32,778 nt of DNA, from assembly GCA_012523685.1 (NCBI GenBank), contig JAAYTR010000236.1, forward strand, positions 1 to 32,778. The letters are read 5' to 3'. Below are positions 17,905 to 26,426 of this stretch, piece after piece; positions within the stretch are counted from its first letter, which is position 1, and each line of letters begins with the position of its first letter. The notes beneath the pieces were generated by a model. That model made no database searches. It was not told the origin of the DNA and worked only from the letters and a program-made list of their open reading frames with translations. The stretch is from Clostridiaceae bacterium (GTDB lineage: Bacteria > Bacillota > Clostridia > DSM-8532). A program made the position numbers and the translations under genes.

Positions 17905-19179
17905 ATGGAGAAAAAGAACGAAAAAGACATAGCGTTAGCAATACCTGAGCTTTCAGAGATCAGCAACAGCTATATGGAGGATTTTCTTGGAGAGATTCAG
18001 GAAATTCTGGATGAAATCGAGCTTGAACTTGTAAATTTAGAAATGGATCCCGGTAATAAGGAATGCCTGAATTCTATTTATTGCAGCTTCCACACAATCA
18101 GAGGGCTCTCGGGACTGCTTAACAATACTACCTGCATAAAAATCACTGTAGCTACTGAAGAACTGCTGGAGACAGTAAGAAAATATAGTCCCGTAATATC
18201 AAAAACAATAATCAATTTGATTCTGGATTCCATAGACTTTATAAAAAAGCTGAACAATAACCCTGAACTGATTGAGGACAGTAAGTTCTACGGTGAAGTT
18301 GGCCGTCACTTAATTAATCTGAACAAAATTAAAGACGACATTCTTTTAGAAGTACGTAAGCCTATGACAAGAGATGCCCGGATAGGGGAAATCCTGGTTC
18401 AGGAGGGCGCATTGGCTCAATCAGAAGTTGAGGACGTTCTGAAAAAACAAAATAAAAGCAATAACAGAATGAAGTTTGGGGAAATTGTACTGAGAGAGAA
18501 AAAAGTTGATGCATCTGATATTATAAAAGCTATTCGAATGCAGAAGGTTCGCAATACCAATTCTGTAGATCAATATGTCAGGATTCCTCTGGAGAGACTG
18601 GATCAGATTATTGAAATTATTCAGAATGTAAGTACTTTATATGATTCGGTAAAAGATGAGGCTGTTCTTCGCTTTGGCAGCAACGATGCACTGACTATTG
18701 AGTCGACAAAAGCATATCATTTAATTACGGATGTCAGGAATATATTAAAAGAATTACGGATGGTTAATCTGCAGCAAGCATTCCAGAAGCTTACGCGGCT
18801 AGTGTGTTCAATAATTGAGGAGAATCATCTGGAAGTCATGTTTTCTACTCTGGGTGAGAATATTGAAGTGGACAAGGAGATTGCAGACAGAATTGCCCTT
18901 CCAATTGGAGATTTAATCTGGTTGCTCCTTGATAAGGCATACAGCAGGAAGGAAAATAATAACAATAAACGTATCGGTAGTATTGAAGTGGTTGCCTACG
19001 AAGAGAGTAATACTGTTCATATCGATATTACAAGTGATGTTGCTACTGATATAGAGGAACTGAAATCAGACAATAAGTACATTGAAAATATGCAAAAGCT
19101 TAATTATTTAAAATGCCGGCTGGAAACCGATGACATGCATGGTGAAGGTGTAAGAATGTCTGTTATAATTCAGAGATAG
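17905..19179 (+). CDS. CheA-like Hpt protein with degenerate ATPase domain
   Basis: A 424-residue CheA-related protein. Residues 15-115 form an Hpt domain with the phospho-accepting His63 in SFHTIRGLSGLL. Residues about 158-215 hold two helical repeats starting RIGEILVQEG and KFGEIVLREK, a pattern resembling domains in type II/IV secretion ATPases and some CheA proteins. Residues 223-300 match the CheA dimerisation helices (YVRIPLERLDQIIEIIQNV). Residues 308-424 resemble the CheA ATPase domain, but the N box reads IGDLIWLLLDKAYSRKENN, without the HLxRNxxDHGIE residues, and the DxGxG box is SDVAT. Only the final GEGVRMSVIIQ recalls the G-rich lid. No CheW-like P5 domain follows. TTG at 17902 is possible, but ATG at 17905 has better spacing to GGGAGGG. 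It is probably a phosphotransfer scaffold, not a kinase. Confidence 0.82.
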   Translation: MEKKNEKDIALAIPELSEISNSYMEDFLGEIQEILDEIELELVNLEMDPGNKECLNSIYCSFHTIRGLSGLLNNTTCIKITVATEELLETVRKYSPVISKTIINLILDSIDFIKKLNNNPELIEDSKFYGEVGRHLINLNKIKDDILLEVRKPMTRDARIGEILVQEGALAQSEVEDVLKKQNKSNNRMKFGEIVLREKKVDASDIIKAIRMQKVRNTNSVDQYVRIPLERLDQIIEIIQNVSTLYDSVKDEAVLRFGSNDALTIESTKAYHLITDVRNILKELRMVNLQQAFQKLTRLVCSIIEENHLEVMFSTLGENIEVDKEIADRIALPIGDLIWLLLDKAYSRKENNNNKRIGSIEVVAYEESNTVHIDITSDVATDIEELKSDNKYIENMQKLNYLKCRLETDDMHGEGVRMSVIIQR

Positions 19180-19217: not shown

Positions 19218-19252
19218 AAATACCCTTGTAGTGGTGCAAGGGTATTTGTTTT
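19218..19252 (+). terminator. Terminator after the CheA-like gene
   Basis: AAATACCCTTG (19218-19228) pairs perfectly with CAAGGGTATTT (19237-19247), followed by GTTTT. It separates the lepA transcript from the hrcA transcript. Confidence 0.88.
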
Positions 19253-19291: not shown

Positions 19292-19320
19292 TTGACAAAG
19301 AGATAGTACAATGATATTTT
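19292..19320 (+). promoter_or_regulatory. Promoter of the hrcA-grpE-dnaK operon
   Basis: Perfect TTGACA (19292-19297), a 17-base spacer and TATTTT (19315-19320). Transcription would start within the CIRCE element just downstream, the usual geometry for HrcA repression. Confidence 0.8.
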
Positions 19321-19324
19321 TATA

Positions 19325-19351
19325 TTAGCACTCAATGGGTGAGAGTGCTAA
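19325..19351 (+). promoter_or_regulatory. CIRCE operator for HrcA
   Basis: TTAGCACTC (19325-19333), 9 bases, then GAGTGCTAA (19343-19351): a perfect match to the CIRCE consensus. HrcA binds it and represses the operon until heat shock. The in-frame ATG at 19335 lies within this operator and so is not the translational start of hrcA. Confidence 0.98.
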
Positions 19352-25310: not shown

Positions 25311-26052
25311 ATTTATTGTCTCTCCCGATAATATCCAGAATGATAAAATAACACTTGAGGGGGATGATTTAAAACATTTACGACAGGTATTGAGGCTCAA
25401 ACCCGGAGATACAATACATGTATTTGACGGGAGCGGTGTCGAATACGAAGCAGTTATTTTTTCTTTGGAGAAATTTAGAGCAATCGCTGAAATTAAAGCT
25501 GTCTTCCAAGCAGAAACAGAACCTCAAACCCGTGTTACCCTGTTTCAGGGTCTGCCAAAAGGTGAAAAAATGGATCTTATCATACAAAAAAGCGTAGAAT
25601 TGGGTGTCCATAGGATAAACCCTGTTATAACAAACAGGACTGTTGTGAAGCTAAATGAATCAGACAGCAAAAAAAAGACAGAGCGCTGGTCAAGGATAGC
25701 CAGGGAAGCTGCAAAGCAATGTCGCAGAGCCTACGTCCCCGAGGTTACAGAACCAATAACATTTGATGAGGCTTTGAGAAAAGCTGAACCCTTTGGTGCA
25801 GCTTTATTATTATATGAAAACGAAGCAAAAAAATGTTTGAAAGAAACACTGAAATGTTATAATATTAATAAGATTAGGGATATCGCACTGTTTGTCGGGC
25901 CGGAAGGCGGTTTTGCACATCAGGAAGTGGAAGATTGTGCAAATTTAGGTTACGACATAGTGAGTTTAGGAAAACGGATATTAAGAGTAGAAACCGCCAC
26001 TATTTCTGTCCTTTCAATTATAATGTATGAGATGGGTGAAATAAATTTATGA
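25303..26052 (+). CDS. rsmE: 16S rRNA (uracil-1498-N3)-methyltransferase RsmE
   Basis: A 249-residue SPOUT methyltransferase of 16S rRNA U1498. Residues 1-70 form a PUA-like domain (GDDLKHLRQVLRLKPGD). The catalytic knot is marked by GLPKGEKMDLIIQKSVELGV (83-102), FVGPEGGF (197-204) and LGKRILRVETA (222-232). GTG at 25303 is the start, inside the end of prmA, with GGGAGG about 12 bases upstream. It overlaps the next gene by four bases (ATGA). Confidence 0.96.
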   Translation: MHRFIVSPDNIQNDKITLEGDDLKHLRQVLRLKPGDTIHVFDGSGVEYEAVIFSLEKFRAIAEIKAVFQAETEPQTRVTLFQGLPKGEKMDLIIQKSVELGVHRINPVITNRTVVKLNESDSKKKTERWSRIAREAAKQCRRAYVPEVTEPITFDEALRKAEPFGAALLLYENEAKKCLKETLKCYNINKIRDIALFVGPEGGFAHQEVEDCANLGYDIVSLGKRILRVETATISVLSIIMYEMGEINL

Positions 26053-26426
26053 GTAAGATTACTTTTGTTATTACTGATGATGCTATATTTATGCGAACCC
26101 TATTAAGAAAAATTATTGAGCAATCTGATGAATACGAAGTTGTCGGTGAAGCATCCAATGGCCATGAAGCTATTGCTGCTGCGAAAAAGTATCAACCCGA
26201 TATTTTGACTTTAGATATTACTATGCCTGAGATGGATGGAATCCAGGCTGTCAAGGAAATCTTAAAAGTTAGCCCGAAAACGCGTATTATAATGGTTTCG
26301 GCGATGGGTCAGCAGTCAATGGTTATTGAAGCCATAAAACAGGGAGCCAAGGACTTTGTTGTGAAACCCTTTGATAAATCAAGGGTCTACCAGTCAATCA
26401 GGAATGTTCTTGCTATGGATAAATAA
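26049..26426 (+). CDS. CheY-like single-domain response regulator
   Basis: A 125-residue receiver with no output domain. It has the acidic pair Asp10/Asp11, the phosphorylation site Asp56 in LTLDITMPEMDG, Ser84 in MVSAMGQQ, and Lys106 in VVKPFD, so all catalytic residues are present. Its start overlaps the rsmE stop by 4 bases, implying coupled translation. It has the proportions of CheY, yet no chemotaxis operon surrounds it. A pairing with the CheA-like protein at 17905 or the CheX-like protein at 4255 is possible but not shown. Confidence 0.93.
   Translation: MSKITFVITDDAIFMRTLLRKIIEQSDEYEVVGEASNGHEAIAAAKKYQPDILTLDITMPEMDGIQAVKEILKVSPKTRIIMVSAMGQQSMVIEAIKQGAKDFVVKPFDKSRVYQSIRNVLAMDK

Follow-up and report, generated by a model that had tools for sequence, protein, structure and literature searches.

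Results

We found that gene X, which lies in the 32,778-nucleotide stretch of DNA analysed here (the window), very probably encodes a dead MshEN-type CheA. Judged by its sequence, it is a non-catalytic descendant of such a kinase and is conserved under strong purifying selection in one clostridial family only.

Domain architecture and loss of the kinase site

The start codon (ATG 17905), the stop codon (19177-19179) and a ribosome site rated good, AGGGAGGG, located 5' of the ATG, agree with the reading frame originally predicted at 17905-19179. The gene and its parts are as follows.

17905-19179, + strand: gene X, probable 424-aa CheA-derived pseudokinase with the order P1-MshEN-P3-lidless P4 and no P5/CheW (sequence, model and same-locus orthologs)
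17962-18264, + strand: P1/Hpt domain, aa 20-120 (Pfam Hpt E=0.0017, below cut-off; PDB CheA P1 matches; AlphaFold helices)
18091-18093, + strand: codon of His63, in FHTIRG
18157-18159, + strand: codon of Glu85, at the position of the CheA Glu that contacts phospho-His
18280-18354, + strand: additional helix that follows the P1 bundle, aa 126-150, containing His135 (alignment, AlphaFold)
18379-18450, + strand: MshEN motif 1, RIGEILVQEGALAQSEVEDVLKKQ, aa 159-182 (NF053729 at 159-213, PDB MshEN matches, consensus of PMC5013675)
18472-18543, + strand: MshEN motif 2, KFGEIVLREKKVDASDIIKAIRMQ, aa 190-213 (NF053729, PDB MshEN matches)
18568-18804, + strand: P3 dimerisation hairpin, aa 222-300, with conserved tip RFGSND at aa 256-261 (PDB matches, alignment)
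18805-19176, + strand: P4 (Bergerat-fold) remnant, aa 301-424, N box/G1 replaced and lid/G2 deleted (alignment, AlphaFold, Foldseek)

Searches of solved structures with phmmer matched CheA P1 at about residues 19-116 and CheA P3-P4 at residues 221-393, with E values of 1.3e-13 to 1e-8, far beyond chance. A profile of the orthologs strengthened the CheA match in the PDB to 9e-21, and P3-P4 of T. maritima CheA (4xiv) matched P3 and early P4 of gene X with E=8e-9 (3e-13 with the profile). AlphaFold (26 orthologs) gave a confident P1 bundle, with helix pLDDT of about 80-94, and a confident P4 remnant, with the P3 hairpin less so and the middle at low confidence; when the model was submitted to Foldseek, CheA P3-P4 structures were the top matches. 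At E<1, none of the Pfam models for MshEN, HATPase_c or CheA dimerisation matched the gene X product, and the assignments of P3, P4 and MshEN rest on NCBIfam and PDB profiles instead.

P3 is recognisably that of a CheA. A P4 domain carrying the N, G1, F and G2 boxes was found in none of the 26 full-length orthologs to which all our residue counts refer. Alignment with an intact relative showed that the catalytic Asn of the N box is replaced by Leu, Ile, Phe, Ala or Cys in 26/26, and that of the two N-box His positions one is occupied by E, D or K and the other mostly by K. The Asp of DxGxG is Gly, Ser, Asn or Cys, again in every ortholog, and from the first Gly of this box onwards 57 residues are deleted in all 26, corresponding to residues 381-437 of the intact relative, which comprise the rest of G1, the F box, the lid and G2. 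No CheW-like P5 was found in the gene X product or its orthologs, which end right after the P4 remnant, where P5 would start. What all orthologs have in common is the P3 hairpin with its tip, RFG(S/N/T)(N/D/K)(D/N), and early P4, and their best-conserved regions are MshEN motif 2 and P3. On these sequences catalysis is not credible, and the protein presumably binds no ATP at all. The original prediction, a CheA-like pseudokinase that keeps the dimerisation helices, lacks a CheW-like domain and has unrecognisable N and DxGxG boxes, is therefore well supported, both by the sequence and by the same-locus homologs, none of which has the intact ATP site that would have refuted it.

Distribution and descent

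Orthologs were present in 28 of the 32 genomes of the Thermoclostridium family, spanning six of its seven genera and including Thermoclostridium caenicola and uncultured Clostridiaceae, and the order lepA-hemW-X-hrcA was seen wherever the contig permits a view. In the seventh genus (four genomes, among them the closed 2.97-Mb G020), hemW directly adjoins hrcA, and neither tblastn nor inspection by eye of the hemW-hrcA gaps revealed a remnant of gene X. Because the lepA/hemW/hrcA/grpE/dnaK tree nests this genus inside the family, gene X was lost there.

Among 341 genomes of the class scanned beyond the family, one relative scored above threshold, an intact CheA of 888 aa (genome G347, L081), and a scan of the phylum added one more, an intact CheA of 600 aa (G687, L125). 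The closest intact relatives are full-length CheAs with the same P1-MshEN-P3-P4 order, which align colinearly with the gene X product (256 bits for the G687 protein, in which HTIKG, NSISH and DDGNG are intact). The P3 tips of gene X and the G687 protein share (R/K)FGSND. In the P3-P4 tree, gene X forms one clade beside G687, well separated from the canonical CheA of the family; its branch is very long, and exactly where it attaches is unsure. The intact MshEN-CheAs retain the phospho-accepting His, the N box, DxGxG, the lid and the CheW domain, and their genes are members of che operons with CheB, CheD, CheR, MCP and CheW (gene names assigned by reading translations), whereas gene X, from which P5 and all catalytic parts have been lost, is a solitary gene flanked by hemW and hrcA.

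Two further CheA-like genes were observed. One is a second gene of G347 (L081:12569-14287, 572 aa), situated in the che cluster that also holds the MshEN-CheA. A partial CheA with intact DxGxG (L064, G009:C379) is found in a genome of the genus to which the window belongs; its nearest grouping is with G462, an MshEN-type CheA from a different class, and its origin is unsure, its host genome being 7% contaminated.

The MshEN-type domain

The two GEI(L/V) repeats that had been described as inserted between the Hpt and dimerisation regions are real, but they are no new insertion, being part of a probable MshEN-type domain that gene X has in common with intact MshEN-type CheAs. The MshEN consensus consists of two 24-residue motifs, RLGxx(LVI)(LVI)xxG(LVI)(LVI)xxxxLxxxLxxQ, joined by a short spacer (PMC5013675), and MshEN-CheA fusions were already named by Wang et al. 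2016 (PMC5013675), so the fusion in itself was known before this analysis. The first motif of the gene X product is close to consensus; the second is degenerate (Lys in place of Arg and of the turn Gly, Phe/Ile in place of Leu), and the spacer has 7 residues compared with 5 in the consensus. Both Gly and both Gln positions that contact c-di-GMP (contacts from PMC5013675) are retained. NF053729, an NCBIfam model of an MshE-related c-di-GMP motif, matched residues 159-213 over its full length with E=2e-8 and 33.9 bits, slightly below its cut-off of 38 bits; it also matched 22/26 orthologs and scored above cut-off in the intact CheA of G347 (44.6 bits). When a profile of the segment was searched against the PDB, all 13 sequences matched were pilus ATPases that carry MshEN or the c-di-GMP domains of such proteins, including the V. 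cholerae MshE domain 5htl. Foldseek gave no meaningful match with the model of the MshEN-P3 fragment, which is of low confidence. Motif 1 was lost in four orthologs, by two changes on the tree. Given the degenerate motif 2, the score below cut-off and these losses, c-di-GMP binding may be absent from gene X orthologs or not universal among them.

P1 and phosphotransfer

His63, predicted from its HTIRG context, is present in the gene X product, and its closest relatives retain it together with Glu85. Among the 26 orthologs, position 63 is His in 16, Asn in 5, Asp in 2 and Arg, Ile and Val in 1 each, and its absence from 10/26 corresponds to four independent changes on the tree. Glu85 was found in 16/16 His-bearing compared with 5/10 His-lacking orthologs (Fisher p=0.004, uncorrected for kinship). 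The extra helix behind the P1 bundle contains His135 (codon 18307-18309), which is invariant in 26/26 although the canonical phospho-His is often gone; the intact G687 relative has Phe at this position.

These data bear on whether gene X works as a phosphotransfer protein or phosphate sink, in which His63 would take phosphate from a kinase or a receiver and hand it on, as in ChpT or Spo0B. We consider this unlikely. The joint retention of His63 and Glu85 in 16/26, with Glu85 lost only where His63 is absent, speaks for it, as does ChpT itself, whose lid is likewise replaced and which is unable to autophosphorylate (PMC3433190). However, the phospho-His required in proteins of the ChpT/Spo0B type has been lost four times, while P1 and the rest of the protein are still under purifying selection (P1 dN/dS 0.10-0.13 in pairs without His63), and phosphotransfer therefore cannot be the common function. 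The phosphotransfer hub of the original prediction is accordingly weakened for the family and retains some support in the nearest relatives. Losses of His63 and of MshEN occurred mostly in different orthologs, indicating that neither is the single function common to all. In the present protein P1 is perhaps still phosphorylatable.

The proposed partner, a receiver encoded at 26049, also counts against phosphotransfer, since it is retained in genomes without gene X. It was equally present in G014, G020, G044, G025 and G347, all of which lack gene X, with 68-74% identity, and was thus ruled out as a link specific to gene X. This stand-alone receiver (26049-26426) is highly conserved, with 68-93% identity among genomes inside and outside the family, whether or not they have gene X.

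Genomic neighbourhood and cellular context

Three elements lie between gene X and hrcA.

19218-19247, + strand: terminator-like hairpin after gene X (consensus match; weak alone)
19292-19320, + strand: promoter-like site upstream of CIRCE
19325-19351, + strand: hrcA CIRCE operator, TTAGCACTC-N9-GAGTGCTAA

Terminator-like consensus matches numbered 3 in the region, compared with 2.4 expected by chance. Together, the hairpin and the promoter-like site with CIRCE suggest that gene X is most likely the last gene of a lepA-hemW-X unit. They also separate gene X from hrcA, so that the link with general physiology suggested earlier from the hemW-hrcA locus does not hold through hrcA. A heat-shock link through hrcA was ruled out, because hrcA has its own promoter and CIRCE; where gene X is missing, the CIRCE/promoter element likewise comes after hemW. 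CIRCE overlaps ATG 19335, the hrcA start given by the mechanical open reading frame call, and hrcA probably begins further downstream.

The source genome encodes seven GGDEF domains and a canonical CheA whose site is intact (G000:C56), and CheW domains were detected in 31/32 family genomes. Presence of chemotaxis or c-di-GMP genes did not separate the genomes with gene X from those without. The intact CheA and the widespread CheW domains, along with the strong conservation of P3, would fit a structural pseudo-CheA that sits in the array, or titrates canonical CheA through P3 heterodimers, without sensing c-di-GMP. We regard this as distinctly improbable, since the CheW-binding P5 is missing and with it normal entry into arrays, the P3 of gene X is far from that of canonical CheA in the tree, and the retained MshEN domain would be left unexplained.

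Pairwise dN/dS of the orthologs was 0.04-0.13 over the whole protein, and no ortholog has an internal stop, the incomplete ones breaking off at contig ends. Gene X can hardly be a decaying pseudogene on its way out: its complete loss from one genus and the lack of MshEN motif 1 or His63 in some members would agree with decay, but reading frames are open in all orthologs, dN/dS is about 0.1 over the full length, and the gene is spread over six genera. This strong purifying selection and the universally kept P3/early-P4 core lend support to the scaffold role that had also been proposed.

Discussion

We propose that the gene X product is a dimeric, non-catalytic adaptor, probably responsive to c-di-GMP, with a P1 domain that is optionally phosphorylatable; for the mechanism as a whole, we judge the arguments to be evenly poised. 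The protein would act as a dimer, as its P3 suggests. By binding c-di-GMP, MshEN, which lies directly ahead of the P3 hairpin, would shift the posture of the dimer and so alter its contacts with a partner, which might be a response regulator, a receptor array or another kinase. Where His63 and Glu85 are retained, as they are here, P1 may in addition accept phosphate, either from another kinase such as the intact CheA of the same genome or from a receiver, phosphorylation being a dispensable extra.

To our knowledge, the few bacterial histidine pseudokinases described so far are DivL and phosphotransferases with a dead fold, for example ChpT. Spo0B of Bacillus is a dimeric phosphotransferase with a dead kinase fold. 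In ChpT of Caulobacter, a lidless ATPase-type fold is likewise part of a dimeric phosphotransferase (PMC3433190). The gene X product probably resembles both: it is kinase-like, would be dimeric judging from P3, and its ATPase-type fold appears, from sequence and model, to have no part in autophosphorylation. In ChpT and Spo0B, however, the required His is on the dimerisation hairpin, whereas gene X carries it on a P1 domain of its own, and 10/26 orthologs have lost it; unlike them, gene X also has MshEN. DivL of Caulobacter is a kinase turned non-catalytic sensor/adaptor (PMC4211667) and is similar in that a histidine kinase became non-catalytic with its phospho-His replaced, in gene X in some orthologs. 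DivL is a PAS-bearing protein of the class I kinase type, whereas gene X is of the CheA type with MshEN. Our literature search found no conserved CheA pseudokinase of this kind.

The wider reading, that gene X is a c-di-GMP-gated CheA pseudokinase that left its operon and became a family-wide adaptor under second-messenger control, linking c-di-GMP with a kinase or phosphorelay that is not part of classical chemotaxis, is tentative, and we hold it to be somewhat doubtful. Gene X is carried by the cultured strain Thermoclostridium caenicola DSM 19027 and is thus open to experiment. The ATP site is lost everywhere and the phospho-His repeatedly, while P3 and mostly MshEN are kept; if the proposal is true, a chemotaxis kinase would have been turned into a second-messenger adaptor in this family.
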